This document shows positions 26,222-48,919 of a DNA stretch of 64,000 nucleotides, piece after piece. Source of the stretch: Marivirga sericea (GTDB taxonomy: Bacteria; Bacteroidota; Bacteroidia; Cytophagales; Cyclobacteriaceae); the NCBI RefSeq assembly GCF_900177665.1, contig NZ_FXAW01000008.1:1-64000 (forward strand), given 5' to 3'. The notes below the pieces were generated by a model. That model saw only the letters and a program-made list of their open reading frames with translations. It searched no databases and had not been told where the DNA came from. How positions within the stretch are numbered: the first letter of the stretch is position 1; every line of letters starts with the position of its first letter. The position numbers were made by a program, and so were the translations under genes.

Positions 26222-26923
26222 TTAAACAAACTTCTCCCGAAACTGCAAATTAAACATTCCATAAAGTAAGCACAATGCACTGGCTACTATCAAGTACAAT
26301 CGGTTTTTGAAAATAATGCTGTGCCAGATGAACTCGCTCATTTCTCTTGGTTCTGAAAATGGGTTAAGAAAGACATTGTATACATTGAATCTTAGAGGTT
26401 CCGAAAACACAAAAAAGATAAAGGAGACAATTACAAGCACAATTGCAGTTCCGTTTCCATTTTTGATTAAGGTAGATAGCATAAATGCTAATGAGGACAG
26501 GAACATGATAGGGAACAGCACTTGCCCCATCATTGGGAGTAAATTAAAACGATAAAGTGTGAAATTTGCAATGCTGCCTAGGACCAGCAGGATAACAAAT
26601 GCCACTCCAACTGCCAATATAAAACGAACTAACCATACTTTATACCGATAGTTCGGGATACCAAAAATGGTCTCCAGCATCTTGGAATCATCATCATTCT
26701 GAATTCCATAGGCCATAGGGTAAAAGATCAGTAGCAAGCCAGGAAATACCAGAAATCCGTACATAACCGCCTCATTAAAATCAGGATCATCAAAAATGGC
26801 AATTGTGATGATAAATGCAAAAAACAAAAAGGACGCCACCACAAAGTAGACGAACTTGTTTGCGAATATCACCTTCACATTGTAGGTGATTAGTTTATAT
26901 AGTAGCAATAGATAGCTTTTCAT
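26222..26923 (-). CDS. ABC-2 type permease-like membrane protein, last gene of the export locus
   Basis: 233 residues with six hydrophobic segments (about 24-43, 52-70, 95-117, 124-147, 155-172, 208-225). The layout, with a cytosolic N-terminus and YGIQNDDDSKMLETIFGIPNYRYK between helices 2 and 3, matches ABC-2 permeases that pair with a separate ATPase. It is the distal gene in the minus-strand locus, 114 bases after the RND-ABC fusion, and is the best candidate membrane partner for the fused ATPase domain. This pairing is inference from gene order. Confidence 0.72.
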   Translation of the reverse strand: MKSYLLLLYKLITYNVKVIFANKFVYFVVASFLFFAFIITIAIFDDPDFNEAVMYGFLVFPGLLLIFYPMAYGIQNDDDSKMLETIFGIPNYRYKVWLVRFILAVGVAFVILLVLGSIANFTLYRFNLLPMMGQVLFPIMFLSSLAFMLSTLIKNGNGTAIVLVIVSFIFFVFSEPLRFNVYNVFLNPFSEPREMSEFIWHSIIFKNRLYLIVASALCLLYGMFNLQFREKFV

Positions 26924-26973
26924 TTTTTTGGTATTTTATGTTTCATTTTTGCAAGCAAGGTAACACCCCTATT

Positions 26974-26995
26974 ATCCCCGCCAGCTGGCGGGGAT
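26974..26995. repeat. Perfect 22-bp palindrome (REP-like)
   Basis: Two 11-base halves, ATCCCCGCCAG and CTGGCGGGGAT, are exact inverted complements. A related imperfect element, CCCGCCAATTGGCAGGG, lies at 44724-44740 at the other end of the export locus. They are probably dispersed palindromic repeats, not operators. Confidence 0.6.
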
Positions 26996-27024
26996 AGCCG
27001 CACTGATCTTATTCTGTGCGTATT

Positions 27025-27037
27025 CCCCCTTTGGGGG
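27025..27037 (-). terminator. GC hairpin directly after the RND-ABC stop
   Basis: CCCCC-TTT-GGGGG touches the stop codon of the gene ending at 27038. Read on the minus strand it is followed by 'aata', without a T-run, so it would attenuate, not terminate, transcription into the 26222-26923 gene. Confidence 0.35.
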
Positions 27038-30000
27038 CTAGGGGGCTTTCTTTGCGGCCTGGGGGCTTTTACTCTTCATCAACCACAAATAAGCATCCTC
27101 CAGCTGGGCCCGAACTTGAACGGCATCTTCCCTTGGTTGCGCGCCTGCCAAACATTTCACTCTAATCTGATCTCCTTCACGCATGTGATGTACAATCAGA
27201 TAGTTTTCCTTCTCACTTTCAAATTCTTCAGGAGAAAGATGAAATTCCCAGACCTTATCATTGGCTAGCTCTGCCATGGTCGTAGGACTACCGATATATT
27301 CAATATTTCCTGAAATAAGTACTGCCAAATTATTACAGCTACTAGCGATATCCTCTATGATATGCGTAGAGAAAACCACAATTCGTTCCCGACTTAATTC
27401 TACCAAAAGATTCCTGAATCGGATTCTTTCTAAGGGATCCAGACCTGCAGTAGGTTCATCCACCACTAATATTTTAGGCAGGTGAAGCAAAATTTGAGCA
27501 ATCCCAATTCGCTGCTTCATTCCTCCGGAAAAAGAGCCAATTTTCTTATGCTGATGCTCATCCATATGCACCGCTTTCAGTACATATTGCACTCTTTCTT
27601 CTCGGACATCTTTTTGGCTGATTTTACGCAGTATCGCCTGATAATCGAGAAATTCATAAGGCGTCATATTTTCATAAGTCCCAAAAGCTTGAGGTAAGTA
27701 GCCAATCAACCCCTGAAGCTCTTCTCTTCTCATGTTTGTATCATGTCCATTGATCCAGATTTTACCATAACTCTGATCCATAATTCCGCATAGTATTCGC
27801 ATTAGGGTAGTTTTACCAGCACCATTAGGCCCTAAAAGTCCGAACATGCCTTGTTCAATCGTCAGGCTAACTCCCTTAAGGGCTTTGAATTGTGACTTCT
27901 TTGGTTTTACAAAAGGGATAGCCAAGAGTAATTTGTAATACAGTCTTCTGATTTTTGCAAAACGCCCTTTAATCTCATCAATTATGACAGGCTTTTCTTT
28001 AAGCTTTCTAGCTATTCGCGCCAAAAACAAACCTGTAAACCATACAATAATCAGGAAGACACCAACTCCTTTTGTCTGGATATCGCTATAGAGATAGGCT
28101 GCACTCACGATAGGGAAGGCCCAGTACAATAGCGAATAGATGAATCGTATTAACCTTTTCCCCTTTTGCGCTAGCAGGGCTACTTCCTTAAAAATAGATA
28201 GCAATAAGGCATGAAGCGAAATCATAAATAGTAGTTGCCAGAACGCTTTGTCCAGGAAGAAATAGATAAAATATAATAGGAAGGCGATTAATGCTCCTTG
28301 CCATATCGCATTTTGCAATACTGCCTTGACGGTAACCGGTTCCTCATTACGTTTTTCAAACAATCGCCTATTGCCTTTCCATTCTCTGATCCATCGCTTA
28401 TCTCTTCCATAAATTTTGGTCAGGCTTTGGATTTCAATATGCATGGCCTCATCAGAAGCTACCATTTTGGCATTCGCTTGTCGTAAGGAAGTCATGATGA
28501 AATAGGTGCCTCCCGGAATTAAAATCACGGCTGCCAAAAACCAAATGATTTGCCATAATGCACCTTCTATTTGGAAATAGATGAGAGCTGCAAATCCAAT
28601 TAAAAGCACGATTTGCACCAGCTTCGTACTAGTTTTAAGATTTCTAAACCAGTGTAATACGCTTTCAAGCCCTGCACTCATGGTAGGAATGTAGATCAAG
28701 GTAAGCACGGTAGCAAAAGCCAGTCCGCCCATTACGGTGACAGCAAAAGGTTGTCCTATGCTGGTCACATATTCAGCATCACCCATTGCCAAGGGCAACA
28801 TGGCCACAAAAGTGGTTATGGAAGTAATGAGAATCGGCCTAATCCGAGAAATTCCGCTCATCATCAGGGCTCGATATTTATTGAAACCTCTTCTTCTAAG
28901 AATTCGGGAATAATCAATTAATATAATGCCGTTGTTAACTACAACACCCAATAATATCATGAGTCCAATTAAAGTATTAGCATTAAGTAAAGAATTACCT
29001 GTAAATGTAAGACCTAGGAACGCACCTATACCTGCCAGCGGGATTGAAAACATAATTACCAGTGGTAGGTATAGCGATTCAAAAACAGCTGCCAGAATCA
29101 TGAAAATGATCATTATGGCGGCAAAAATGAAGAAGTATAGCTCATCATACATTCCTTCATCATGGATCACATCCACGACCATGCCTTTAGGAATATTTAC
29201 ACTGCGCACGATCTGGTCAACCTCCATTCTGGAAGATTCAAGCAGGGATTCAGATTTTAATACTTCATCAATAAAGCTATAAGTGATTTCAATCCTTTTT
29301 TCCTGGTTTAATCGGGTAATGGTACTTTCTCCTGAGGAGTAAATTACCGAGCCAATGTCGTCTAGAGAATGCGCTACTCCTGAGGTGCTGGTAACCGGCA
29401 TCTCTCGAAGGTCTTTCATTTCTTTGGCTTTTCGAACCTGGTTTTGAGTGTGAATGGTAATCTCGAATTCTTCACCTCCGCTCACAAAATTAGAGCCTGA
29501 AGCAAAGGATGGTTGAAAATCATTCAATCCAATAGCCACATTTTGCAGGGTGATATTATTGTCACTCATGCGCTTTTGATTAAACAAAATATGTGCTTCA
29601 GGCCGTTCTGGGCTAATATTTACATTACTTCTTTTGATGGATTGTAAGCCCGTGACATAATTGTTGATATCACTGGCGATAATTTTCATCAGCTCAAAAT
29701 CCTGACCTTTGACGATGATTCGTTCTGAGGGAGAGCCAATTCCCAACATGCGCTCAAAGTCAGAAGAAGCTGAGCTGCCCACTCCACTTTGCCCGCCTCT
29801 AGCACGAGGGGGTTCATCCAAAGAAATATCCATATCTTCAAAGTTGTTGCTGATGCTTCTTAATTTGTTTTGAACATCTTTAACTGAGACGGTATCTAAA
29901 TCTTTAAATCCTTCAACCAGCATTACGGTAAGCACCGCTTCACCTTCCGAAACCTGACTGATTAATTTATCCACCACTGGAATTTCCATCACTTTCTCTT

Positions 30001-31756
30001 CCAATTTTCTGGTTTTAATGTCAGTAGTTGGCAGAGTGGCGCCTTCCGGCATTGTGACAAATAAATTCATTTGCGAATCATTCACTTCTGATGGTCCTGA
30101 CATGCTCACCAAAAAACTTAGACCAATAGTTACGAAGAATAATACTAAACCTCCAATGACGGTGAGCAAGGGTTTTCTGAAGCATGATTTTAAAATCACC
30201 ATATACTTCTGAATCAGACGCTGGCGGATAGAAGCATTTTTTATCAAAGGAGCTTTTTCCTCATCATCTTTATTAATGGCAGCATGTGCCAACATCGGGA
30301 TTAATACCAGTGCCACTACCAATGAAACCAATAGGGTTGAAATAATGGAAATTCCGATATGTGTTCCGATTTTCGTAATCAGGAAATTGGAAGAAAATAT
30401 AAAGGGAAGAAAAACGGTTACGGTGGTTAAAGTAGCTGCAATGACTGATCGCATCACTTCTTTGGTGCCATCTACCACAGCATCTTCTTTTTTCTTTTTA
30501 TTGACTACATGGCGGTAGATGTTCTCCAATACCACCACACTGTTATCCAAAAGCATCCCGATGGCAAGAGCCATACCAATTAGGGTCAGGCTGTTGACGG
30601 AAATACCAGCTGCATAAAAGAAGTTGAAAGCAGTATAGACTGAAATAGGAATGGCTAAGGCAATGCTCAAAATAAACTTTAATCTTCTGAGAAATACCCA
30701 TAAAACAAATATAGCGAGAAGACCACCAGTCACTGCCAAATTTTTGATCTGGTCAATGTTTTTAGTCATCAGCTCCGCTTGATTATTTTGTACTACCATT
30801 TCTACCCCCATTGATTCCAAATCTTGATTGATGCCATCAATAGTTTCAAGTGTTGCATCAGAAAGTGCAATGAGATTAGCTTGAGTTCCTTTAGATAATC
30901 GAATAGAAACCGCATCTTTACCATTGATACGACTGAGGGAAGTTTGTTCTTTTACCCCAAAGAATACTTCGGCTACATCGCTAAGCAGCAGGGGACCTTT
31001 TTCCGAAACTACCAGATTCTGGATGTTTTTGATATCCTTTAATTCAGCTGTTATATTGACAAAAATCTGCTGTCCGTTTCGTTCTATCTGACCTGCAAAA
31101 GCACTTTTATTGGAGTTTTGGGAGAGTACATTGCTTATGGTGTTGGGAGTAATGCCGTTAGCTTCACAAATTTCATCATTCATGATGATCTCTATTGTTT
31201 TTTGACGACCACCAAATACTTCTACTCCTCCTATACCGTCAATGTCATTGAGTCGATCGGTTATATACTGATCAGTGACATTTCTAACACGATCTACTCC
31301 GCCACTTCCCAACACCTGCAAATCCATAAAAGCATTGGTAAACTGATCCGTATCAATTTTTACAATATTTACTATAAACTCAGAGCCAAGCTCAGATTTG
31401 ATGGCACTTACCTTTTGTTCCAGCTTTAAGTAAGCATATTTTATATTCACGCCTTGGCGGAAAGAGATAAAGATCATGCCTTGCTGACTGTCCGCATTGG
31501 CGGTGATTTCTTCTATGCCTTCCATAGTACTGATGGCACTTTCCAGTGGAATAATAGCTTCTCGTTCCATATAATTTGGATCCACTTCTGAAGTAGCCCC
31601 TACCTGCACAATCAATACTGGTAGTTCCACATTAGGGAAAAGCTCAACTGGTAATTTGTTGTAGGATATATAGCCCATCACCGTGAAGCCAATGAAGAGC
31701 ATGGAAACCAATACTTTCCTTCTAATGATCGTATGTAATAGTCCGTTCTTACCCAT
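27038..31756 (-). CDS. RND efflux permease fused to an ABC ATPase that is interrupted by membrane segments
   Basis: 1572 residues in one frame. Residues 1-1045 form a complete HAE1-like RND permease: TM1, LPVELFPN, GMLLDNSVVVLEN in TM4 and the second TM bundle. Two extra hydrophobic segments follow (about 1050-1095). At about 1105-1115 IEIQSLTKIYG aligns with the first strand of an ABC nucleotide-binding domain, but then about 170 residues with four or five hydrophobic stretches intervene before the domain resumes at FKALKGVSLTIEQG. Walker A GPNGAGKT (1309-1316), signature FSGGMKQR, Walker B LVVDEPTAG and an H-loop FSTHI are all intact. The C-terminal tail KSPQAAKKAP comes from a GC-rich element. 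It overlaps the upstream RND gene by 8 bases. I know of no described transporter with this layout. Confidence 0.87.
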   Translation of the reverse strand: MGKNGLLHTIIRRKVLVSMLFIGFTVMGYISYNKLPVELFPNVELPVLIVQVGATSEVDPNYMEREAIIPLESAISTMEGIEEITANADSQQGMIFISFRQGVNIKYAYLKLEQKVSAIKSELGSEFIVNIVKIDTDQFTNAFMDLQVLGSGGVDRVRNVTDQYITDRLNDIDGIGGVEVFGGRQKTIEIIMNDEICEANGITPNTISNVLSQNSNKSAFAGQIERNGQQIFVNITAELKDIKNIQNLVVSEKGPLLLSDVAEVFFGVKEQTSLSRINGKDAVSIRLSKGTQANLIALSDATLETIDGINQDLESMGVEMVVQNNQAELMTKNIDQIKNLAVTGGLLAIFVLWVFLRRLKFILSIALAIPISVYTAFNFFYAAGISVNSLTLIGMALAIGMLLDNSVVVLENIYRHVVNKKKKEDAVVDGTKEVMRSVIAATLTTVTVFLPFIFSSNFLITKIGTHIGISIISTLLVSLVVALVLIPMLAHAAINKDDEEKAPLIKNASIRQRLIQKYMVILKSCFRKPLLTVIGGLVLFFVTIGLSFLVSMSGPSEVNDSQMNLFVTMPEGATLPTTDIKTRKLEEKVMEIPVVDKLISQVSEGEAVLTVMLVEGFKDLDTVSVKDVQNKLRSISNNFEDMDISLDEPPRARGGQSGVGSSASSDFERMLGIGSPSERIIVKGQDFELMKIIASDINNYVTGLQSIKRSNVNISPERPEAHILFNQKRMSDNNITLQNVAIGLNDFQPSFASGSNFVSGGEEFEITIHTQNQVRKAKEMKDLREMPVTSTSGVAHSLDDIGSVIYSSGESTITRLNQEKRIEITYSFIDEVLKSESLLESSRMEVDQIVRSVNIPKGMVVDVIHDEGMYDELYFFIFAAIMIIFMILAAVFESLYLPLVIMFSIPLAGIGAFLGLTFTGNSLLNANTLIGLMILLGVVVNNGIILIDYSRILRRRGFNKYRALMMSGISRIRPILITSITTFVAMLPLAMGDAEYVTSIGQPFAVTVMGGLAFATVLTLIYIPTMSAGLESVLHWFRNLKTSTKLVQIVLLIGFAALIYFQIEGALWQIIWFLAAVILIPGGTYFIMTSLRQANAKMVASDEAMHIEIQSLTKIYGRDKRWIREWKGNRRLFEKRNEEPVTVKAVLQNAIWQGALIAFLLYFIYFFLDKAFWQLLFMISLHALLLSIFKEVALLAQKGKRLIRFIYSLLYWAFPIVSAAYLYSDIQTKGVGVFLIIVWFTGLFLARIARKLKEKPVIIDEIKGRFAKIRRLYYKLLLAIPFVKPKKSQFKALKGVSLTIEQGMFGLLGPNGAGKTTLMRILCGIMDQSYGKIWINGHDTNMRREELQGLIGYLPQAFGTYENMTPYEFLDYQAILRKISQKDVREERVQYVLKAVHMDEHQHKKIGSFSGGMKQRIGIAQILLHLPKILVVDEPTAGLDPLERIRFRNLLVELSRERIVVFSTHIIEDIASSCNNLAVLISGNIEYIGSPTTMAELANDKVWEFHLSPEEFESEKENYLIVHHMREGDQIRVKCLAGAQPREDAVQVRAQLEDAYLWLMKSKSPQAAKKAP

Positions 31757-34700
31757 TGGAAGCTTCTTTTTTGGCGCTAGATGTCCCTTTAATCTTGCTG
31801 ATTAAATTTTCTATACTTTCATAGAAGCATGGAATCACAATGAGGGTTAATAAAGTGGAAGAAAGCAATCCACCGATTACCGCTACAGCCATTGGGGCAC
31901 GTAACGCAGCGCTTTCCCCAAAACCAATGGTTAAAGGCAACAAAGCAAGGATAGTGGTAAGACTTGTCATGATGATAGGTCTGAATCTCCTTTGTGCAGC
32001 ATCCAGTATGGAGTCTCTTAAATCCATGCCGCTCCTTTTGTTTCGATTAATGCTATCCACCAGAATAATTGAATTATTAACCGCTATTCCGGCTAGCATG
32101 ATGATACCAATAAAAGCCATCATATTTAATGACATTCCGAGGATCCAAAAGGAGGCGAGTGCTCCAACACAAGCTAATGGAATGGTAAGCAATATCGTGA
32201 ACGGATGTAAAAGGGACTCAAACTGAGAAGCCAAAACCATATACACCAACAACACAGAAAGAAGCAGTGAAAATAATAAGTTATTCATCGACTCCTGTCT
32301 TTTTACTTCCTGACCGGCTACACTTATTTTGTATTGTGGAGGAACGGACATTTCTGCGAAAGCGTCATCAACTGATTTTACAATTTGATTGTATGCTTTG
32401 TCTTGATTGACTCTAGCACCCACGGTTACCATTCGGCTTTGATTTTTGCGGTAAATGGAATTGGCAGCATATTGTATACTGATATCGGCAATTTCGCTCA
32501 ATGGAAATTCTCTGCTGCTGCTTTTAATGCGCATATTTTCGAGTCCGTTCAGCGAGATTTTAGGGACTTTCACAAGGATATCCTGCATTTCCCCGCCTCG
32601 TTCCAAGCTTCCAGCCTTCTTGCCTTCCAGTTGATCCTTTATTTGGACGATAACATCTTCAATGGATAAGCTCAATAAGCCCGCTCTGTATTTATCTACA
32701 TCTACTTTGATCTGCGGAACCCCTTCTTCCAGATTGGAAACAGGTTCATAAATGTCTTCATTGCTGTTCAATATCACCATCACTGAATCGGAAAGTGCAC
32801 TAAGTGCTTCGAATTCAGCACCACTTACTTCTACTAGCAATGGCATCTGCTCTTCACCTAAAATTGCATTAAGTGCGCTTTCATCATTGCTAAAACTAGC
32901 AGTAAGACCTGGGATGCCTTCGAAATAAGTAGAAAGGGCAGAAGTGACTTCATTAATGTCCAATTCTACATCCTCTTTGAAGATTAATTTTAAACTGGCT
33001 TTATTCTCATCATATACATTTTCATTATCAATCCCCGACTGGCTTTTTTCAGGCCCGATATGAGAATACACATGCTCCAGCTGCTCTTCAAACAAGATCG
33101 ATAGTTGACCTTCAATTTGGTCAACAGTAGAAGAAGTCCTTGAAAGTGGTGTTCCATTTGCTAATTTTAAATCAACTGCAATCGCTTTGGTGCCCGCCTG
33201 TGGCATGTATTCGCTGCCAATAATTTCAATTAATTGATAGGAACCCAAGACTAACAAAAAGGATAAGACAATAAAAGCAATTCTGTAATGAAGTACCTTA
33301 TTCAGGAAGTCTCGGTAGACTTTATATTTCAGAGGCTTTTCCATTTGCTTGGTATTATCCTTGCGGAAAATTTGAGAAAAGAGCATTGGGATAACCAAGA
33401 TGGCAACAGCCAAAGAAGAAATTAAAGAGAAAGCCACAGTCCAGGCCTGATCTTTAAACAACTCACCGGATGGTCCTTGCAAGTAAACAATCGGCAAGAA
33501 AACCACAATAGTGGTCAGTGTGGAGGCGGTAATGGCACCACTGACATCACTGGTTCCTTTTATTGCTGCATCGATTACACTCATTCCTTCTTCCCGTCTT
33601 CTGAAAATGGCTTCAACTACCACAATAGCATTATCTACCAACATTCCAGCGCCTAAAGCCAGACCACCTAGGGTCATCACGTTTAAGGTAAGCCCGTTAA
33701 AATACATCAGATTGAAAGTGGCGATAATAGAAACTGGAATCGCGACACTGATGATAAGGGTAGATCCTATTCTGCGAAGGAAAACAAATAAGATGATTAC
33801 AGCGAAAAGTGCCCCGTAGAGTCCTGATTCTTTTACTTCATCGATAGCGCCTTGTATAAATCTGCCTTGATTCTGAATGATGACAAACTCATAACCCGGA
33901 ACAGATTTTTTCAACTCATCCAGAACTTCGGTTAATTCATTTACGGCATTCACCGTATTGTATTTTGTTTCCTTAAAGATTGAAAGCCCAAGACTTCTTT
34001 GTTGGTTCACTCTAACAATGCTGTTAGCTTCCTTATCCATGATTTTTAAAGTGGCTACTTCACGCAACAAAACCGGAACCTGACCAGAAGTGGAAGTCTG
34101 AGGATTTGTAGCTGATTGTGCCATTTCAGCATTCACATTAGTGGAATTAGGATTGCTGCTTGTGCTTTCACGATTGGTATATCCGACTACCAATTCCTCT
34201 AAATCTTCCGAGTCTTCAATAATGCCAAGGCCTTTAATCACATATTTTCGACCTAGTTCTTCAATAAAACCACCCGATACATTGCGGTTATAGTTTTCAA
34301 TTTTGGCTACTAAATCGTTTACTGTTAGTCCGTAAGAAGCGAGTAGATTTGGATCTGTTTCTAAAACCACTTCTTTTTCCTGCTCTCCTGAAAGTCGAAC
34401 CTCAGCTATGCCTGGCAAACGGATGATCTCATTTCTAAAGTTATTTTCCGCCACTTTTCTGAGGGCCTCCGTATCATTAGAATTGGGATTGTAGATGCCC
34501 AAGATCATAATGGGAGTAGCATTTGGATCAAACTGAGAGATTACAAATTCTTCAATTTCCTCATCTAAAGAAAAGCTAGAGAGCGACTTTTGTAGGTCCA
34601 GGAATGCCTCATCCATGTCTTTGCCCCAGTCGTATTGAACTGTAACACGACCATAACCTGTTTGGCTAATGGAACTTACTTCTACCGCGCCATTTTGCCT

Positions 34701-34919
34701 GATGGCAACCGACTCTATAGACTCTACAAATTGCTTTTCAATTTCTGATGGAGGTTTTATTCCCGCTTTAAGCTCCACAAATAAAGTGGGATTCTTCAGA
34801 TCGGGGAACAATTCAATTGGTAATTTACCAAATGAAATGGTGCCTAATAAAATGACGGCCAGCACCAACATCAGAATGGAAATGGGGTAGGAAACGGCCA
34901 ATGAAACTATCTTTTTCAA
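31749..34919 (-). CDS. RND-family efflux permease (AcrB/MdtB-like), first of a tandem pair
   Basis: 1056 residues, full-length RND protein. TM1 is near residues 10-30; LPIELFPDLKNPTLFVEL opens the porter domain. TM4 carries GMLVDNAIVVVEAI, where the Asp is the expected proton-relay residue. The second half repeats the pattern, with GIAVNNSIILVDSI in place of the Asp box, as is usual. Tandem RND genes can form heterotrimers (as in MdtBC). It lies 52 bases after the membrane-fusion gene and overlaps the RND-ABC fusion by 8 bases, so all three should be coexpressed. Confidence 0.9.
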   Translation of the reverse strand: MKKIVSLAVSYPISILMLVLAVILLGTISFGKLPIELFPDLKNPTLFVELKAGIKPPSEIEKQFVESIESVAIRQNGAVEVSSISQTGYGRVTVQYDWGKDMDEAFLDLQKSLSSFSLDEEIEEFVISQFDPNATPIMILGIYNPNSNDTEALRKVAENNFRNEIIRLPGIAEVRLSGEQEKEVVLETDPNLLASYGLTVNDLVAKIENYNRNVSGGFIEELGRKYVIKGLGIIEDSEDLEELVVGYTNRESTSSNPNSTNVNAEMAQSATNPQTSTSGQVPVLLREVATLKIMDKEANSIVRVNQQRSLGLSIFKETKYNTVNAVNELTEVLDELKKSVPGYEFVIIQNQGRFIQGAIDEVKESGLYGALFAVIILFVFLRRIGSTLIISVAIPVSIIATFNLMYFNGLTLNVMTLGGLALGAGMLVDNAIVVVEAIFRRREEGMSVIDAAIKGTSDVSGAITASTLTTIVVFLPIVYLQGPSGELFKDQAWTVAFSLISSLAVAILVIPMLFSQIFRKDNTKQMEKPLKYKVYRDFLNKVLHYRIAFIVLSFLLVLGSYQLIEIIGSEYMPQAGTKAIAVDLKLANGTPLSRTSSTVDQIEGQLSILFEEQLEHVYSHIGPEKSQSGIDNENVYDENKASLKLIFKEDVELDINEVTSALSTYFEGIPGLTASFSNDESALNAILGEEQMPLLVEVSGAEFEALSALSDSVMVILNSNEDIYEPVSNLEEGVPQIKVDVDKYRAGLLSLSIEDVIVQIKDQLEGKKAGSLERGGEMQDILVKVPKISLNGLENMRIKSSSREFPLSEIADISIQYAANSIYRKNQSRMVTVGARVNQDKAYNQIVKSVDDAFAEMSVPPQYKISVAGQEVKRQESMNNLLFSLLLSVLLVYMVLASQFESLLHPFTILLTIPLACVGALASFWILGMSLNMMAFIGIIMLAGIAVNNSIILVDSINRNKRSGMDLRDSILDAAQRRFRPIIMTSLTTILALLPLTIGFGESAALRAPMAVAVIGGLLSSTLLTLIVIPCFYESIENLISKIKGTSSAKKEASNG

Positions 34920-34971: not shown

Positions 34972-36030
34972 TTATTGTAATACACTTACCTTCGATTTAT
35001 TTCTCAAGGTCTCAAATCCACTCACAACCAATCTATCGTTGATTTTGAGTCCACTAATCACTTCAATGTCATCCATGGTTTCTAATCCGGTTGTGATTTG
35101 CTTTTCAGTAGCAATACCGTTTTCCACTATAAAAACCACTTTAGCATCTTGTCTAGAAATCACGGTTTCTTTTGGAATCACAATAGTGCTATCACGCTGC
35201 TCAGAAAGAATGGCCGCTTTAATAAACATGCCCGGACGAAGAGAATGCTTATCATTATTGATTTGCAAAACACTTTGGAATGTTCGGGTTTCCGGGTCGA
35301 TGATGGGTGAAATCTGGCTAATCTTACCTTTGATAGTGTCATTACCCATATTGTAATTGGTGATTTGGACTAATTGATCAAGCGTCACTTCCGGTAAATG
35401 CTTTTCTGGTAACTTAACATCCATCAAGAGATTGTTGTATTCCATCACCTTGAAAAGTGCTGTACCCTGATCGATTTTAATTCCATTGGTGTGATAAGGC
35501 AGTTCTACAATTACACCATCAAACGGAACTCTAACCGCCATTTTGGCCAATTGAATTTCCGCATTTTCGTAAGAGTACTTTGCGTTTACGTATGAAATGG
35601 AGGCATTTTTTAGTTCAGTTTGGGTAACCCCACCTTTGTCATATAGAGATTTTTGCTTTTGTAGATTATTGTCGGCCAACTCCAGGTTGAGCTTTTTTCC
35701 CTCAACTTGCAATCCGTTGACGAACTCTTCATTTTCAAGTCTGACCAACACCTGACCTGATTTCACGACATCACCTAGCGCAAAGGGTCTTCCTGTAACT
35801 GGATTTCTTTGAAGCCGATAAAGACCACTCATTTCGGATTTCATTTCTCCTTCTTTGGAAGAATAGACCGTACCAGTGGTTTCGATAAACCTGGAGATGC
35901 TTCTGGGCTTGATGGTTTCAACTGATACCGGAATTTTTATTTCTGTTTGAATATTATTCTCTTGGTTACTGCATGACCATAAAACAATCATTATTAGTAG
36001 GGGCGTGAACCCTTTTAATAGCTTTTTCAT
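34972..36030 (-). CDS. Membrane-fusion (periplasmic adaptor) lipoprotein of the RND pump
   Basis: 352 residues. The signal ends in a lipobox (MIVLWSC). Residues 35-75 and 150-180 form the split lipoyl domain (GDVVKSGQVLVRLENEEFVN, MAVRVPFDGVIVELPYH). The hairpin lies between them (coiled coil, about 90-140), followed by a beta-barrel domain (TLDQLVQITNYNMG) and a C-terminal membrane-proximal domain (ISGLKINDRLVVSGF). It bridges the inner-membrane pump to the TolC-family channel encoded 83 bases upstream. It is usual in length. Confidence 0.9.
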   Translation of the reverse strand: MKKLLKGFTPLLIMIVLWSCSNQENNIQTEIKIPVSVETIKPRSISRFIETTGTVYSSKEGEMKSEMSGLYRLQRNPVTGRPFALGDVVKSGQVLVRLENEEFVNGLQVEGKKLNLELADNNLQKQKSLYDKGGVTQTELKNASISYVNAKYSYENAEIQLAKMAVRVPFDGVIVELPYHTNGIKIDQGTALFKVMEYNNLLMDVKLPEKHLPEVTLDQLVQITNYNMGNDTIKGKISQISPIIDPETRTFQSVLQINNDKHSLRPGMFIKAAILSEQRDSTIVIPKETVISRQDAKVVFIVENGIATEKQITTGLETMDDIEVISGLKINDRLVVSGFETLRNKSKVSVLQ

Positions 36031-36113: not shown

Positions 36114-37616
36114 CTAGTATCTGTTAATCATTACGGGTTCGTTTTTCTCAAAATCGTAAAGTGACTGCACCTTTAAATTCAGTAATTCCATTCTGTAATT
36201 GATCAATGCATCAGCCAGTGCGCCTTTTTTCTCCGAAAGCTGGCTTTGAAATCTATTGAGATCGATACTAGTCAGATCACCGTTTTTGTATCGCTCTAGG
36301 TTAATGTCATAGGTAAGTTTGGCATTTTTTACATTTTGCTCCGCAATGGAGATTTGGTTTTCCAGGTTCTGCAGATTTCTGTAAATTTTTCTAATGCCGA
36401 TAATGATATTATTTTCTTCCACCTGTAGGTCCACCCGATTGATTTCCAGATTAGCATTGGCGGCATCCATTCTGGCTCTGTTTTCACCCCAATCCCATAT
36501 CGGAATGTTGAAAGTGATGGCTACTCGAGGGTTCAAATTGGGCTGTTCATAAACTTCAGGCGCTTGTTCGTTATCACCGAATACGCCCAATGATAAAGCA
36601 ACAGATCCTTTAAACTCATTTAATGCTTTGGTTCGGGTTAATTCAAATTGCGATCTTTCGATAGCCATTCCACGCTGTCTCAACTCCATTCTGTGCTCTA
36701 GTCCATGCTCTATAGCTTTTGCCAAATCCACCTTTCTAGTAATGAAATCAATATCAACCGCTACTTCTATATCCTCATCTAAATTGAGTCCGAGGAGGAG
36801 CTTAAAGTCATCCGCGGCATTGTTGAGTAATACTTCGTTGTTTTCTAGGGTGGATTTGGAAGAAGCAAGGTTCAATTCCGCTTGATACAATTCCTCTTTC
36901 GCTAAAAGGTCAGCTTCAACTTTATTCAAGGTGATTTCATAGCTGACTTTTTGATTTTCATATTCATCCGTAGCAATTTCTAAATTATTTTGACGCTGAT
37001 AGAAATTGTAAAAAGAACGGGTTACATCCTGTTCCAAACTAAGTAGTTGGATGCTATTACTGATCTGAGCATTCTCAAGATTCAGTTCTAATTCCTTCAG
37101 TTGCAGCTTCGTTCTGTTATATGTGAAAATGGGCTGCTCCAGCTGTAGGTATAGGTTGTTGCTAAAAGTTTTTGTTCTCACATCTTGAAATTCAGAATAG
37201 TTATCTCTATAGCCGAATTGGTTGATCAAAGAGATGCTACCGTCAGTCGCTACGATGGGCTGAGTTACCGAAAAATTAGCAAAGGAATTATAATCTTCAT
37301 TGGTGTTCCATTGTGAAAATAGTTCGTTGAAATTACGATTTCGATTATAGTCGAAGGGCGTGACATCCAATGAAAACCTTGATTTTAAGGAGGCACGTTG
37401 AGCATCCAGACTACGCTGATTCCCGTAGAGATTTAATTTAGATTTCTTGATATTTGGGCTTTTTTGCTGAGCAACTTTAATGGCCTCTTGGAGTGTGAGC
37501 GTCTGTTGTCCCATTAAATTTTGAGACATTAAGCTACATCCCAAAATGATGAGTACCAGCACTAATGGGCTGATTCTCATTGGTTTTCTGCTTGAGTTTT
37601 CTGTAGTTCTGTTCAT
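36114..37616 (-). CDS. TolC-family outer-membrane channel
   Basis: 500 residues with an N-terminal signal (start perhaps at the second Met, residue 13). Two TolC repeats follow, with long helices: TLTLQEAIKVAQQKSPNIK opens repeat 1, and FELTRTKALNEFKGSVALSL with FNIPIWDWGENRARMDAA marks repeat 2. The C-terminal INLERYKNGDLTSIDLNRFQ is typical. It forms the exit duct of the tripartite pump. It lies 4 bases after the giant permease gene and 83 bases before the adaptor gene. Confidence 0.9.
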   Translation of the reverse strand: MNRTTENSSRKPMRISPLVLVLIILGCSLMSQNLMGQQTLTLQEAIKVAQQKSPNIKKSKLNLYGNQRSLDAQRASLKSRFSLDVTPFDYNRNRNFNELFSQWNTNEDYNSFANFSVTQPIVATDGSISLINQFGYRDNYSEFQDVRTKTFSNNLYLQLEQPIFTYNRTKLQLKELELNLENAQISNSIQLLSLEQDVTRSFYNFYQRQNNLEIATDEYENQKVSYEITLNKVEADLLAKEELYQAELNLASSKSTLENNEVLLNNAADDFKLLLGLNLDEDIEVAVDIDFITRKVDLAKAIEHGLEHRMELRQRGMAIERSQFELTRTKALNEFKGSVALSLGVFGDNEQAPEVYEQPNLNPRVAITFNIPIWDWGENRARMDAANANLEINRVDLQVEENNIIIGIRKIYRNLQNLENQISIAEQNVKNAKLTYDINLERYKNGDLTSIDLNRFQSQLSEKKGALADALINYRMELLNLKVQSLYDFEKNEPVMINRY

Positions 37617-37620
37617 AGTT

Positions 37621-40600
37621 TTATTGCTTAACCCATTTTATCGCATCTGCATAAACTGTTCGAAGGTCACATTCATCTGTTAATGAAATACTTCCTCCTT
37701 CTTCGTTGAAATAATAGGACCCCAGGTAATTCCAGCCGGGTTCCGCATTGGATATATTGTAATTGATATTGTCTTCGCCATCGGCATGCTTGATGATGTA
37801 GTGATAGAAATACTGCTTTCCATTGCTATCATTACCACTATATGCGTCTTGATTTTTTCCTTTCATATAGGTGTAGAGATCATAGAATCCTGCTTCCTTT
37901 ATTTCTGGTGTCCAGCTAGCCACTTTTTCACCACTGCCCGAGCGGGTAAAGTGTGCCGATCGTATGACAGTCCCGAAATACTCAGAACCCGTTGTGGCTA
38001 ACCATTTGGAATAAGGCCGATCCCATTCCCCATAGTATTTTTGTTCAGTAGTTTTTCGACTGTCCAGATAGGCTTTTAAATAAGTAGGTTTTATGGGACT
38101 GAAGCTGCTGAAATTTTCATCTTCATTATCCACAATGACTTCTGTAAATGCCAACTCTTTATCTTCTGTAGCCAGCCTTTCACCCTCAAACATAGTAGCA
38201 TTTTCACGCTTGCTTAATGTCCCGAATGGCATGGTGATTTTAGAAGGTATGTTTCGGGAGATTAAAGTGTTAATGGTGATATTATTCGGTTTTTCATCCA
38301 AAATGAAGCCTAACTCTTTTGTTTCTCCCTTTTTAATTAAGGAAAGCTGTCCTTCAACTTCAGTTTCCGTTTCCTCATTCACTTTCCCTCTATAAAATTC
38401 GCCATCGCTATTATCTTTATTGTCAAAGATTATCTCAATCACTCCATCATTATCACCACTGTTTTTAATTTTGGTCAATATTTGATAACGCTTTCTATCC
38501 CCATCCAAAATTTCATATTTCTGAAGTTCTAAAATCTCAAATGCTGGCTGCGATGTCTCAGAATAGACTTTTTGAATAATTGGATCAATATCCAAATTGA
38601 ATTCATTCAAAAGTGCTGTTCTGAGATCCTCATAATGGGTCAACTGGTGGTTATGTGCACTGATCCATTCATAGAGAAAAGCTTTTAAATTGGGTTCTCC
38701 CACTAGTTGTCCAAGATAAGAGAAGAGGTATTCGCTCTTCAATTCAATAGACTTCTGGATTTTATTGAATTCTGCCTCTGATACAATCTCGTTCAGGGAG
38801 GATTCTCGCATCAAGTCGTTGCATTCTTCCGTAAAGGAAATCCCATTTCTGTTTCTGGAGAAATCTCTTTGAGCCTGCTTTTCATTCACCAGATAGTTAG
38901 CAATGCTCCGGTTTAGCAGTCCCCATTCTTCACTGACAAAACCAGTATTGTAGGTATAGTAATTGGGAAAAATCGAGTAGTCAGCATCATCTTGGTTATA
39001 GCCGTCAAAAGTGTAGTTGGCTCCAATCTGCTTGGTGATTACTCTTTTAATGAGATCATTGAATACGTTGGCCTGCTTCTGTTTATCTGTTAAAGTCTGA
39101 TTTTGGGACTTTGCCTGATTATTCATATCCCGCAATTGCATTCTGAGATCTAACTGCCGGATATCACCTCCTTTTTCGGGCCAAAAGACGGTTTCCGGCT
39201 GTAAATAGGCCTGATGTGTTTCGTACACTTTTGTGTAGGCTGAAAATTGAAGTGGAGTTTCTACAAATTGTAGCCTTTTGAAAGGGTAGGAAATTTTTTG
39301 TGCATCTTCATATTCATTGGAAAGATCGGTAATGAGTGAACTCAAAGTATCTGGAAGTTGATCAAGGTGATCCGCAAAAAAATCATGGTCACGGTAATGA
39401 TATATCGCATACTCAATGGAATCTACCATGATTTCTTTTTTCACATAATCGCCTACTGCAAGGGAAATTTGCGAAAGGGGATATTCTGGCTGGAATTCAT
39501 AAGTATTGTCCTTTACTACTGATTCACCTTGAGAAATGGCCATCTGCCCCTCATGTGTTTTCACTTTCAATTGAAAATCTATGAAGGATAATCTTTCTTG
39601 CTTAGGAGTTTTAGGACTATATCCAATTTGAGTATCAGGATACCACATGACGTCTTTGGTGAGCAGCACATAGTCAGATTGCAGAAAGGCATATTTCTTT
39701 TGCAGAGAGAAAGTGAAATATTCTAAAGGCGATTCATATCGTTCTTCATCAACTTCCAAATGTGCAGCTGATTCCTGAATAGTACCGCTATACTTCAGCT
39801 CTACATTCATTTCCTGTGCTGGTGCCAGGCTAAATCCTTTTGTGATAGAAACAATATGCAGAGTTTTTTCTGCTGAAACAGATTGTCCATTCACTAGCAC
39901 CTCATCGATTTTTAGCCCCGGATTTAGGCTGAAGTAGATTTGATTGAGGGTTTCAGTCGTATTGTTTTTTACGAGCATTGCTGAATTCCCCATGATTTCA
40001 TTTTCTGAGAGCTCCAAATCGATGGAATGGGAAAGAATGCTAATGTTGGGTTCCTCTGCCCACTGTCCGTTGAGGCTAACCATTTGCGCTCTTAATTCTA
40101 TCGGATCTTGACGCATATCCCATAATCTTAGCATGATAATGGAAGAAAATGCCAAAACTGCTAATCCAATTGCTCCTGTTAAAATCTTGGTCGTTTTGTG
40201 GCTTGAAAGTCGATCCAATAAAAAGGCAGTCATAAATAAAAAGGCAATGCCCAAGATGAAATAAAATGACCGTTGGATTAGCGCAAATTCCATGTCTTGG
40301 AAACCGGCAATATCAGAAGTGAACATGGGCAATCGGAACCCCACGAAATCCAAAATATTGGAAAACTGATCGAAATAGTAGATCAACTGCACCCCGGCTA
40401 GTCCTAATAGCAATACAATGCTAATGGGCTGGTTCTTTAAAATGGTCACCAGTAGGAACGATATTCCCGTGGTAAACATAATGGTGGGCATGCTGGTCAG
40501 CAAAGGATACAGAACGTAAGTCAGTGGCTCGAATGTGGTGTAGGGGCTGGTAATATTGAAGATCAGCGAAATCGAAACGAAAATCAGGTTTAACAGAAAG

Positions 40601-40953
40601 AAAAGCTTAAATAATGCTAGTGCTTTCCCTAACACATAATCTAAATTGCTAATGGGGCGCACAAAAAAGACCTCATTGGTATCCACTTTTTTATCTTTCT
40701 TAATCAAGCCAGTGGCCAAAAACACCACAGCCGCTGCTTGTGGAATGCTGATCAGCACCAAACTGGCATAAGGCATCATCCAACTATTGGATAGGAAGGC
40801 CCATCTTGGTACATCTGCCTCAGAAAAAACGGCAATATTAAAAATAGTCAAGAAGCCTATACCGGCTATGGCTAATATTCTGAAAAACCAATTTCTCCAA
40901 AGCACTTTCGCCTCAAATCGGGAGATGGTCAAAATGTTTTTGATTGAAATCAT
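37621..40953 (-). CDS. ABC-2 permease with degenerate M1-aminopeptidase-like domain and golvesin-like C-terminus
   Basis: 1110 residues. Residues 1-270 contain six to eight membrane segments of an ABC-2 permease (NWFFRILAIAGIGFL, SLVLISIPQAAAVVFLATGL). A periplasmic part (about 285-830) resembles the M1 peptidase fold of 'ABC permease/M1' proteins, but no HExxH zinc motif is present, so it should be inactive and may be a binding domain. The last 110 residues (GFYDLYTYMKGKNQD, AEPGWNYLGSYYFNEEGG, YADAIKWVK) look like a golvesin/xanthan-lyase type carbohydrate or surface-binding domain. The upstream ATPase gene overlaps by 4 bases (ATGA), so the two form one transporter. Confidence 0.8.
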   Translation of the reverse strand: MISIKNILTISRFEAKVLWRNWFFRILAIAGIGFLTIFNIAVFSEADVPRWAFLSNSWMMPYASLVLISIPQAAAVVFLATGLIKKDKKVDTNEVFFVRPISNLDYVLGKALALFKLFFLLNLIFVSISLIFNITSPYTTFEPLTYVLYPLLTSMPTIMFTTGISFLLVTILKNQPISIVLLLGLAGVQLIYYFDQFSNILDFVGFRLPMFTSDIAGFQDMEFALIQRSFYFILGIAFLFMTAFLLDRLSSHKTTKILTGAIGLAVLAFSSIIMLRLWDMRQDPIELRAQMVSLNGQWAEEPNISILSHSIDLELSENEIMGNSAMLVKNNTTETLNQIYFSLNPGLKIDEVLVNGQSVSAEKTLHIVSITKGFSLAPAQEMNVELKYSGTIQESAAHLEVDEERYESPLEYFTFSLQKKYAFLQSDYVLLTKDVMWYPDTQIGYSPKTPKQERLSFIDFQLKVKTHEGQMAISQGESVVKDNTYEFQPEYPLSQISLAVGDYVKKEIMVDSIEYAIYHYRDHDFFADHLDQLPDTLSSLITDLSNEYEDAQKISYPFKRLQFVETPLQFSAYTKVYETHQAYLQPETVFWPEKGGDIRQLDLRMQLRDMNNQAKSQNQTLTDKQKQANVFNDLIKRVITKQIGANYTFDGYNQDDADYSIFPNYYTYNTGFVSEEWGLLNRSIANYLVNEKQAQRDFSRNRNGISFTEECNDLMRESSLNEIVSEAEFNKIQKSIELKSEYLFSYLGQLVGEPNLKAFLYEWISAHNHQLTHYEDLRTALLNEFNLDIDPIIQKVYSETSQPAFEILELQKYEILDGDRKRYQILTKIKNSGDNDGVIEIIFDNKDNSDGEFYRGKVNEETETEVEGQLSLIKKGETKELGFILDEKPNNITINTLISRNIPSKITMPFGTLSKRENATMFEGERLATEDKELAFTEVIVDNEDENFSSFSPIKPTYLKAYLDSRKTTEQKYYGEWDRPYSKWLATTGSEYFGTVIRSAHFTRSGSGEKVASWTPEIKEAGFYDLYTYMKGKNQDAYSGNDSNGKQYFYHYIIKHADGEDNINYNISNAEPGWNYLGSYYFNEEGGSISLTDECDLRTVYADAIKWVKQ

Positions 40954-41840
40954 ACCAGTGATACGCCTAGTTGGTTTTCCATAAAATATACATAAGCATG
41001 CTCCAGGTTAGGATTCGCATGAGTCGCTTTAGGATGCGGTGAATTTTCAGCAATCAGTTGCACTTCCCACTTTCCATCGATAGGAATGGTAGAAACCACG
41101 GAATATTCCGTTTTGATTTTGTTGAATTCTTCATCGTTTAGATTGACTTGCCATACATGCCCTCGAACTTTTTCTATCATCCCTTCTGGAGATCCTTTAA
41201 AAGCCACTTCTCCCTTATTGAGCATGGCCATATTATGGCAGGTACTGCTGATATCGCCCACAATATGAGTGGAAAGAATAATGGTCACATCTTTTTGACT
41301 TAAATCAGATAAGATGTTTCGAAAACGAATTCTTTCTTCCGGATCTAGGCCAGTGGTAGGTTCATCAATCACCAATAACCTCGGTTCGCCAATTAGTGCC
41401 TGGGCTATTCCCAGCCTGCGTTTCATCCCTCCGGAAAGTTTGTTGGCCAATCTTTCACGCACATCCAAGAGGCCAACCTGGTCCAACAGTTGATCTACTT
41501 TGATGATTCGCTCCTTCTTTTTGAGCGAGGTGGATAATTGGGCAGCATAATCCAGGAACTCCCAGGTCTTAAGCTTTGAGAAAAAGGTAAAATCCTGAGG
41601 AAGATAGCCTATGCGAGTACGGATTTTTTGTCGGTGCTCATTAATATCCATACCGTCCATTAGGATGGTGCCGGATGTAGCTTGCTGTGCGGTCACCAAA
41701 ATGCGCATAAAGCTAGATTTACCAGCGCCATTAGGGCCTAGCAAACCGAACATTCCGCTGCCGATTTCCAGATTTACATCTTTTATAGCAGTATAGCCAT
41801 TCGGATAGGTCTTCGTGAGTCCTGTAATTTGTATATTCAT
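40950..41840 (-). CDS. ABC transporter ATP-binding protein (partner of the giant permease)
   Basis: 296 residues. Walker A GPNGAGKS (about 36-43), signature LSGGMKRR, Walker B LLVIDEPTTGLD, H-loop STHIVGD. The N-terminal ITGLTKTYPNGYTAIKDVNL is the undisturbed form of what is split in the RND-ABC fusion; the two proteins are clearly related (LLGPNGAGK, IGYLPQ, GLDPEERIRFRN in both). About 65 extra C-terminal residues follow the ATPase core. It overlaps the 1110-residue permease by 4 bases. Confidence 0.9.
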   Translation of the reverse strand: MNIQITGLTKTYPNGYTAIKDVNLEIGSGMFGLLGPNGAGKSSFMRILVTAQQATSGTILMDGMDINEHRQKIRTRIGYLPQDFTFFSKLKTWEFLDYAAQLSTSLKKKERIIKVDQLLDQVGLLDVRERLANKLSGGMKRRLGIAQALIGEPRLLVIDEPTTGLDPEERIRFRNILSDLSQKDVTIILSTHIVGDISSTCHNMAMLNKGEVAFKGSPEGMIEKVRGHVWQVNLNDEEFNKIKTEYSVVSTIPIDGKWEVQLIAENSPHPKATHANPNLEHAYVYFMENQLGVSLV

Positions 41841-41948: not shown

Positions 41949-42647
41949 TTAATGCACAATTAGTCTACCGCTTGACAACCTGCTACTTTCATCTTTTTTG
42001 ATTTGAATTTCACTTGTGCCAATTAAGTGCAAATAGGAGTCATTGGTCATAGACGCTTTCACAATTTTGATGGGCTCATTTGTCACTACTTCTGCTTCGT
42101 CAATTATTGCATTGAGCGTGTCAACCTCAACATCTTGTAAATTGAAATAAGCAGAATTCTGGATATTTAGATTAATCGTAGCTATTTCATTGCTTGCATT
42201 CACCCTAATCCAGCCAGCATTCTGCTGAATATCTAAGCTTTCCTGTTGCAGGTCATATATGTATAGGCTAGCATTATCAACTCTCAAGCCTTTAAAGTTC
42301 GATTTTGACACATAAATCGATATATCTAAGGCTTGTTTTTTCTCCAAATCCATGGATTTTATACTTAGTGTATCACCCTCTAGATCATATTTCAGATATT
42401 GAAGTACATCTCCCGAAACACTTTTTATTTCTATTCCTGGTTTATTGGAGCCGTGAAGCGCAATTCGATGGCCAATATCCACAAGTTTAAGGTACTGCAC
42501 CGATTTAATGTCAACAGTTTCCGAAATACTATTGCTATCATCTAAGCGGTTCAAATCCCCTTTCAAGCGCATTTCAGTAAATGCCACAATCATATAAAGG
42601 AATAAGAAACCGAAGAGGCCGATCAATATTTTATTGCTTAGTTTCAT
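41949..42647 (-). CDS. DUF2807-like (GIN-domain) single-pass protein
   Basis: 232 residues with an N-terminal membrane segment (IGLFGFLFLYMIVAF). The remainder is repetitive short beta strands (LRVDNASLYIYDL, INLNIQNSAYFNLQDVEVDTL) of the right-handed beta-helix type seen in DUF2807 proteins. These often sit next to ABC or GntR genes in Bacteroidota. It is probably a periplasmic sensor or adhesin-like accessory; the role is unknown. It starts 5 bases after the GntR gene. Confidence 0.65.
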   Translation of the reverse strand: MKLSNKILIGLFGFLFLYMIVAFTEMRLKGDLNRLDDSNSISETVDIKSVQYLKLVDIGHRIALHGSNKPGIEIKSVSGDVLQYLKYDLEGDTLSIKSMDLEKKQALDISIYVSKSNFKGLRVDNASLYIYDLQQESLDIQQNAGWIRVNASNEIATINLNIQNSAYFNLQDVEVDTLNAIIDEAEVVTNEPIKIVKASMTNDSYLHLIGTSEIQIKKDESSRLSSGRLIVH

Positions 42648-42652
42648 AACGA

Positions 42653-43009
42653 TCAGTTAATTTTTTCAATATGTTTTTTCAATTCAGTGGCGCTAATGCC
42701 TAATAGCTGCGCTTGCTTCAAGAATTCAGGCAATATCTGCTTAAAGAATTCTTCTCTTTTGCTCTCCAAAATAATTTTAGGGGCATTTTCATTGACGAAA
42801 TAGCCAATGCCTCTTTGGTTTTCGATAATATTCATAGCTTGTAGTTCACTGTAAGTTCTCATAATCGTATTCGGATTTACCCCCATTTCAGCTGCTAATT
42901 CTCGCACTGAGGGGATTTTCTTGCCTGCAGGAAATTCACCATTCACCACCTTGTCGGTAATGCTGTCCGCTATCTGCAGAAATATGCTTTTGCCGTTTTG
43001 AAATTCCAT
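42653..43009 (-). CDS. GntR/YtrA-subfamily transcriptional regulator
   Basis: 118 residues. The N-terminal winged helix carries GKKIPSVRELAAEMGVNPNT and the IIENQRGIGYFVNEN wing. The C-terminal about 40 residues form only the short helical dimerisation part of the YtrA type. Such regulators repress their own ABC-transporter operon and are relieved by envelope stress or antibiotics. It is the third gene of the locus, just after the permease (1-base gap). It likely binds the palindrome at 44640-44659 upstream of the first ATPase gene. Confidence 0.88.
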   Translation of the reverse strand: MEFQNGKSIFLQIADSITDKVVNGEFPAGKKIPSVRELAAEMGVNPNTIMRTYSELQAMNIIENQRGIGYFVNENAPKIILESKREEFFKQILPEFLKQAQLLGISATELKKHIEKIN

Positions 43010-43010
43010 T

Positions 43011-48602: not shown

Positions 48603-48919
48603 CACGCTTTCTTTTTAGGGGCTCTTTCTTTGGTTGACAAACCAGCATCTTGTAGTTTTCTTCCCAGTATATCATCTTTAGCAAGCATTAAGAAATCCTT
48701 TTCAAGACCTAGAACTTTTAAAACATTAAGGTAATGCCCTATACTAACCGATGCTTTGCCCTTTTCAATTGAAATAAGTGTATTCCTCCCAATGCCAGCC
48801 CGTTCTGCGACCATTTGCCCGCTAAGCTTTCGTCTTAGCCTTGCTAGCTTTATTTGCTCGCCTACATTAGCTAGAATTTCCTGATTTTTTGGAAGTAATA
48901 TAGCTTTCTTATTATTCAT
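48602..48919 (-). CDS. hipB: HipB-type antitoxin, XRE-family regulator
   Basis: 105 residues from ATG 48919; upstream frame residues lie in the operator region. An HTH (LARLRRKLSGQMVAERAGIG then RNTLISIEKG) sits at about residues 25-65, followed by a short tail. It neutralises HipA and represses the operon by binding the two operators just upstream. Its stop overlaps the hipA start. The gene lies downstream of the divergent 49144 gene. Confidence 0.88.
   Translation of the reverse strand: MNNKKAILLPKNQEILANVGEQIKLARLRRKLSGQMVAERAGIGRNTLISIEKGKASVSIGHYLNVLKVLGLEKDFLMLAKDDILGRKLQDAGLSTKERAPKKKA

Follow-up and report, generated by a model that had tools for sequence, protein, structure and literature searches.

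A conserved fusion of an RND permease with an ABC ATPase in a seven-gene cassette of Marivirga sericea and other Bacteroidota

The contig NZ_FXAW01000008.1 of the Marivirga sericea genome (RefSeq assembly GCF_900177665.1) carries, within its first 64,000 nucleotides (the stretch analyzed here, hereafter the window), a minus-strand gene that encodes a resistance-nodulation-division (RND) permease joined to the nucleotide-binding domain (NBD) of an ATP-binding cassette (ABC) protein. The gene, here termed RND2-ABC, occupies positions 27038-31756 as a single frame of 1572 codons that runs from ATG to stop with no internal stop codon, as an initial annotation made from the letters of this DNA had proposed. 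The same annotation had read the product as a complete RND permease followed by an ABC domain, and Pfam bears this out. ACR_tran covers residues 8-1026 with 511 bits against a gathering score of 28, i.e. the RND domain is full length, and ABC_tran matches residues 1293-1437 with 104 bits. The gene belongs to a cassette of seven genes on the same strand in the order standalone ABC ATPase (ABCup), large permease (M1perm), outer-membrane factor, periplasmic adaptor, separate RND permease (RND1), RND2-ABC and a 233-residue membrane protein (Table 1).

Table 1. Parts of the RND2-ABC fusion gene and genes of the surrounding cassette (positions in the window)
Feature	Position	Strand	Basis or remark
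RND2-ABC fusion	27038..31756	-	1572-codon single frame; same fusion in 18/18 close relatives
RND permease domain, residues 1-1030, HAE/MdtB-like	28667..31756	-	Pfam; best match among Protein Data Bank (PDB) sequences is MdtB
Two additional hydrophobic helices following the RND domain, residues ~1045-1090	28487..28624	-	Mean hydropathy of 32 sequences
First ABC ATPase strand, residues 1105-1117, MHIEIQSLTKIYG	28406..28444	-	Position-specific scoring matrix (PSSM); pattern in divergent fusions
Insert, 172 residues (1118-1289), ~four predicted membrane helices	27890..28405	-	Hydropathy
Remaining ABC ATPase domain, residues 1290-1500	27257..27889	-	Pfam, motif alignment
C-terminal tail of the fusion, residues 1501-1572	27041..27256	-	Short GC-rich dispersed repeat covers the final codons
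233-residue membrane protein, ~six helices, proposed partner of the fused ATPase	26222..26923	-	Hydropathy, predicted fold, co-occurrence, adjacency
RND1, separate unfused RND permease	31749..34919	-	Counted from the first TTG; actual start possibly internal
Periplasmic adaptor (membrane fusion protein)	34972..36030	-	Over NCBIfam RND_mfp cut-off
Outer-membrane efflux factor, TolC-like	36114..37616	-	Pfam OEP; NCBIfam TolC models below cut-off
Large permease (M1perm)	37621..40953	-	ABC-2-like N-terminus, M1-like region, golvesin C-terminal domain
Standalone ABC ATPase of the cassette (ABCup)	40950..41840	-	Conserved position

A total of 84,980 species genomes were scanned for the fusion by a procedure that detects close relatives only. 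Twenty loci were retrieved, two of which (L023 and L024) are plain ABC proteins and were left out. The other 18 are genuine relatives that share 72-87% identity in their best-matching C-terminal segment and come from Cytophagales taxa including Marivirga, Fulvivirga, Cyclobacteriaceae and Imperialibacter, with Marivirga aurantiaca as the best match. All 18 encode the fusion in one frame; 17 are complete with 1566-1585 residues and one is cut by a contig edge. Wider distribution was searched using a profile made only from the insert, the M. sericea genome itself being counted in each sample and weak matches with internal stops being dropped (2 of 33 in the family, 1 of 6 each in the order and the class). 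Strong matches were obtained in 31 of 245 genomes of the family and in 5 of 390, 5 of 395 and 6 of 395 genomes sampled from the order, class and phylum, respectively. Outside the family, six genomes carry it; they belong to three further families, of which one falls in a different class. Strong matches with frames shorter than 1561 codons were cut by contig ends: frames of 1222, 1483 and 1514 codons lie on contigs of about 5.1-5.3 kb and a frame of 893 codons starts too near the end of its contig. The fusion spans the phylum Bacteroidota, yet it is patchy and uncommon. None of the best 5000 matching plasmid records covered 80% of the C-terminal query.

A search with just the RND part, at E<=1e-60, covered 23 genomes comprising carriers and non-carriers, 21 of which gave matches. 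Those with at least 44% identity occurred in eight genomes (M. sericea included) and all resided in frames of at least 1576 codons, and the remaining matches were at most 31% identical and all resided in frames of 893-1080 codons. The initial annotation had named a frameshift or assembly join and homologues encoded as separate genes as the outcomes that would speak against a genuine fusion. Neither was encountered, as all 18 close relatives share the fusion and no unfused close homologue of RND2 was detected among the 23 genomes at this threshold.

In the fused NBD, Walker A lies at residues 1309-1317, the signature at 1408-1416, Walker B at 1429-1440 and the H-loop at 1462-1466. Walker A, signature and Walker B had been described as intact, and this extends far beyond the window: together with the Q-loop and the H-loop they are kept in all 32 aligned fused proteins, including the signature SFSGGMKQR and the glutamate of Walker B. 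Within the ABC motifs variation is confined to five positions. The threonine in GK[ST] of Walker A is a serine in three of the proteins, the residues beside the Q-loop glutamine change from tyrosine to phenylalanine (one protein) and from alanine to glutamate or serine (six), the signature phenylalanine is a tyrosine in one, and a valine of Walker B is an isoleucine in three. The RND2 domain of the aligned fusions likewise retains residues of a proton relay, namely Asp404 in transmembrane helix (TM) 4 (31/31), Arg973 in TM11 (32/32) and Thr981 (31/32). From an alignment to MdtB, we take Asp404 and Arg973 to be the counterparts of D407 and R971 in AcrB. Asn405 is present in 31/31 and Asn941 and Asn942 in 32/32 of the sequences, i.e. 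the second TM4 aspartate and the TM10 lysine of the AcrB type are missing; AcrB has aspartate and lysine where RND2 has asparagine.

The ABC domain of the fusion is interrupted. A motif typical of the first NBD strand, IEIQSLTKIYG, forms residues 1107-1117 and is followed by the insert of 172 residues, after which the domain picks up again at FKALKGVSLTIEQGMFGLLGPNGAGKTT, shortly before Walker A at residue 1309. The initial annotation had estimated a separation of about 170 residues, close to what we measured. In the 18 close relatives the insert spans 172-175 residues; the N-terminal strand is present at this distance and not contiguous with the NBD. A PSSM for strand 1 was built from the N-termini of standalone ABC proteins of the same genome (28 of 29 standalone matches were used) and run along the whole chain of 19 fused proteins, which are related and do not amount to 19 independent tests. 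The motif near residue 1107 ranked first in 19/19 with 11.0-20.5 bits, the best other site reaching at most 10.7 bits. The pattern is also kept in all 13 divergent fusions, for example as IRIENLVKIYG. These proteins are 44-62% identical to the window's protein in the RND part and 70-84% in the NBD, and their inserts are only 22-37% identical. Such retention beside so divergent an insert would be predicted for a strand that continues to function in the NBD.

Several hydrophobic stretches had been noted in the insert, and the mean hydropathy profile of 32 sequences agrees: it peaks at residues 1150, 1171, 1205 and 1230, the peak at 1205 being the weakest (1.29), and two further peaks at 1049 and 1070 precede the strand. 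Four insert helices are predicted from this profile and, more loosely, from four long helices in a poor AlphaFold2 model (predicted local distance difference test (pLDDT) roughly 60-80). RND permeases have twelve helices and end on the cytoplasmic side. With this end inside, two additional helices would return strand 1 and four more would return the NBD to the same side, and both can meet in the cytoplasm. Mean net charges of three stretches predicted to lie inside were +5.0 (1106-1148), +2.8 (1188-1203) and +9.1 (1248-1290), and both loops predicted to be periplasmic had a mean net charge of -0.1. The loop charges mostly support a placement of strand 1 and NBD together in the cytoplasm, as far as sequence can tell. 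The insert had no match in PDB sequences and none over a Pfam cut-off. Kinship of the extra helices of the fusion with the 233-residue protein as an ABC-2 domain was rejected, since hhalign gave a probability of about 0.1% for the insert and for the whole C-terminal part.

All 11 stretches of sufficient length for the seven genes show the same order, down to 30-60% identity (L061, L062, L064 and L068-L075; the contigs of L074 and L075 have the length and gene content of L011 and L006, and the two were not counted as new loci). Among the close relatives, 15 of 18 stretches are long enough upstream to include the end of M1perm and agree with this order, the other three being shorter. RND1 overlaps RND2-ABC by 8 nt and, like RND2, finds its best PDB sequence match in MdtB. 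Genes for an adaptor and an outer-membrane factor lie in the same cluster, as in tripartite exporters. In the large permease, the ABC-2-like and M1-peptidase-like regions stay below the Pfam cut-offs and HExxH is missing, and the golvesin domain is over its cut-off. Judged from its sequence, this permease looks like a pseudo-peptidase; a relative in the same genome (L108:3739-7326) has HEIAH.

The gene for the 233-residue protein lies directly downstream of the fusion gene in 18/18 close relatives and in 12/13 divergent loci (30 of 31 distinct loci). In 16 of the 18 relatives the two frames overlap, by 29 nt in 15 cases and by 8 nt in one. Of 59 relative genomes, the same nine carry the gene and the insert, and the other 50 have neither. 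Carriers were defined here by E<=1e-59 and coverage of the insert, as all 59 match with a query that includes part of the NBD; in genome G002, two additional partial matches lie at other sites of the contig, and one of them contains a stop. The AlphaFold2 model of the 233-residue protein reached a pLDDT of 66 and a predicted template modeling score (pTM) of 0.61. In Foldseek it matched a 248-residue membrane chain of NosDFY (TM-score 0.67/0.64, E 0.083), presumably NosY, as well as chains of ABCG and PmtCD, with probabilities near 1. These are membrane chains or domains of type V exporters, to which no sequence similarity was detectable in PDB sequences. At weak Foldseek E-values, the model points to a possible type V ABC membrane fold of the 233-residue protein. 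In the window, a GC-rich dispersed repeat (26930-27075) covers the last codons of RND2-ABC and the intergenic spacer that follows; its pattern occurs once in the window, related stretches occur at 10 other sites of the genome, and 15 of the 18 relatives have the 29-nt gene overlap in this region instead.

The origin of the fused ATPase was approached with a tree of 69 ATPase domains, in which the 32 fused NBDs form one group with support of 100/99. Closest to them stands GEN_L102 (97/88), an unfused ATPase encoded by the M. sericea genome, followed by the upstream ATPase of the cassette, in a tree whose root is arbitrary and whose other genome rows show long branches. It includes 25 genomic ABC rows from 30 loci, two having been omitted by design and three filtered. 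GEN_L102 adjoins a 1195-residue permease, the above-mentioned relative in L108 with an intact M1 motif, and by reading, no RND, adaptor or outer-membrane gene was found among the 10 open reading frames (ORFs) of at least 150 residues in this 16-kb stretch. It is plausible, we infer, that an RND gene captured one of two ATPase copies after duplication of an ABC-permease module. The best PDB sequence matches of the fused NBD are ABCA phospholipid transporters, and its best NCBIfam ABC model is that of the gliding ATPase GldA, with 169 bits below the cut-off of 402.6. Other ABC_tran matches in the genome include L094 (G000:C11:32926-33378) and L098 (G000:C8:336496-336948), in frames of 1033 and 1002 codons. 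The fusion was also tried as an anti-phage defense component and rejected: PADLOC returned four ATPase models, all of which match the NBD only.

The component families are known, and the covalent combination together with the insert behind NBD strand 1 appears, by sequence comparison, to match no single family model that we found. MdtB and MdtC are not known to have an ABC domain, the ATPases of NosFY and PmtCD are not known to be part of an RND pump, and MacB is not known to have an RND part. The heteromeric RND pumps MdtABC and MuxABC resemble the cassette in their two adjacent RND genes and an adaptor, and the score obtained here for the MdtB and MdtC equivalogs was 253 bits versus cut-offs of 1584 and 1774. 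MacAB-TolC, like the proposed system, is an ATP-driven exporter tied to an adaptor and an outer-membrane channel, and MacB is described as an ABC protein with its NBD fused to its own permease (PMC8277102). The initial annotation knew of no characterized protein like the fusion. The literature agrees to the extent that neither an RND-ABC fusion nor the cassette is described in the titles and abstract beginnings of the open-licence PMC matches listed, database annotation of single proteins not having been searched.

The domain order, its conservation over a long range, the intact motifs, the single group of fused NBDs in the tree and the linkage to the cassette are the observations on which our interpretation builds. 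We consider it probable that RND2-ABC is a covalent hybrid in a tripartite exporter, in which the fused ATPase powers the neighboring ABC permease and feeds the RND conduit; the complex, its stoichiometry, the direction of transport, the use of energy and the substrate are the parts of this proposal that we infer. With an ABC-2-like neighbor in a conserved cassette, the simplest role of the fused ATPase would be to power that exporter, not to power or gate the RND permease. The initial annotation had suggested the ATPase as a second energy source, which is plausible, or an ATP-gated assembly, which is conceivable, but had overlooked the 233-residue neighbor and the seven-gene cassette. A functional ABC exporter requires two NBDs and two membrane domains. 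Two fused NBDs would dimerize and drive two copies of the 233-residue protein as a type V ABC exporter, and RND2 and RND1 would form a trimer connected to the adaptor and the outer-membrane factor. The stoichiometry MdtB2C1 has been reported (PMC7015380), and by analogy two RND2-ABC chains and one RND1 would provide each pump with exactly two NBDs. Using ATP, the ABC part might transport or pull an amphipathic substrate out of the inner membrane and hand it to the conduit of RND trimer, adaptor and channel, from which the proton gradient would expel it across the outer membrane. The extra helices could anchor the NBD against the RND trimer.

A more specific form of this proposal is possible, though we put it forward tentatively. 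It envisages a single machine, (RND2-ABC)2 with one RND1 and two 233-residue permeases, that combines ATP and the proton gradient in one covalent subunit; the ABC exporter would load the heterotrimeric RND pump directly, and strand 1 and the NBD body would clamp either side of the membrane-helix insert. If true, this would establish a hybrid class beside the pumps driven by ABC, RND and MFS (major facilitator superfamily) proteins. Tripartite exporters are classed by these three kinds of inner-membrane motor (PMC8277102), and there is a fair chance that the fusion represents a hybrid class of its own. Our data suggest that such a pump could use two kinds of energy. A conserved protein joining two motors would make it directly testable whether ATP and proton energy can combine in one pump, and how the RND and ABC cycles are coordinated. 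Membrane helices inserted behind strand 1 of an NBD would, if true, also be topologically unusual among ABC proteins.

Several observations weigh against the favored proposal. The 233-residue protein is below every Pfam ABC-2 cut-off (best ABC2_membrane_4, E 0.32), its top Pfam match is Peptidase_M50B (E 0.005, below cut-off), and it has no match in NCBIfam or among PDB sequences; in Foldseek, its model gave no match at E<=0.001 (best 0.035). Overlap with the fusion gene is replaced by a gap of 114 nt in the window and of 237 and 383 nt in the relatives L005 and L006, and at L065 the 680 nt that remain up to the contig end showed no gene for this protein. The number of insert helices is not firm. 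At a threshold of 1.2, four hydrophobic segments were counted in 20/32 sequences, three in 11/32 and two in 1/32, and at 1.5, four in 11/32, three in 16/32 and fewer in 5/32; in a separate alignment the insert had four segments in the window's protein, compared with three in both L005 and L022. With an odd count the NBD would no longer face the cytoplasm. The stretch 1089-1105, predicted to be cytoplasmic, has a net charge of -0.1 and no positive charge. Modeling of the C-terminal part with AlphaFold, which the initial annotation had suggested, was carried out for residues 1030-1572 with 19 related sequences and gave a poor model (mean pLDDT 55.5, pTM 0.31, the ABC domain mostly below 50-60), which we use for no claim about the fold. 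A model of this quality for the C-terminal 543 residues leaves the pairing of strand 1 and NBD around the insert a prediction from sequence. Asparagine in place of the second aspartate and the relay lysine of the AcrB type makes proton coupling by RND2 uncertain.

The substrate side of the proposal could be read differently. The cassette might encode an ATP-driven machine for assembly or maintenance of the envelope (lipid, lipoprotein or protein), or a complex for mechanotransmission or sensing, rather than a system for efflux of small molecules. This would be compatible with the proposed architecture, and the two ABC modules of the cassette, its large pseudo-M1/golvesin region and the similarity of the fused NBD to ABCA phospholipid transporters fit such a function. 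An adaptor over the RND_mfp cut-off and an outer-membrane factor are, on the other hand, usual exporter parts, nothing points to a lipid substrate specifically, and we regard this reading as rather unlikely. It is unlikely, too, that ATP binding or hydrolysis by the fused ATPase gates, assembles or powers the RND2 trimer with the 233-residue protein as an accessory scaffold. The covalent connection through two extra helices right after the RND domain would suit such a role, as would the absence of a confident ABC-2 assignment for the 233-residue protein by sequence. Against it stand the perfect co-occurrence of this protein with the insert across the 59 genomes, the gene overlap in 16 of 18 loci and the resemblance of its model to type V ABC membrane domains; by reasoning, an RND2 homotrimer would also leave an odd NBD.

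That the strand-1 motif is a chance or decaying look-alike and the working NBD begins only after the insert appears very improbable: although AlphaFold2 did not place the strand confidently, the motif is the top PSSM site in every fused protein scanned and its pattern persists in every divergent fusion beside a poorly conserved insert. An assembly join, a frameshift or a pseudogene, for which we found no supporting point, is rejected as having a practically negligible chance, since 18 separate records and all strong genome matches on long-enough contigs share the same frame, the motifs are conserved and no close unfused homologue was found.

Upstream of the cassette, a minus-strand region (41949-44625) encodes a GntR regulator (42653-43009), a pair of an ABC ATPase and a membrane protein (43011-44625) and a 232-residue protein. 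The best NCBIfam model for the ATPase of this pair is PmtA, below its cut-off. Two of these upstream genes also precede the cassette in L074, and regulation as one unit is therefore possible. Scans for promoters and terminators gave matches at chance level. Farther upstream on the minus strand, a 422-residue ORF (47337-48605) contains a HipA_C domain (175 bits) and encodes a HipA-type kinase-like protein.

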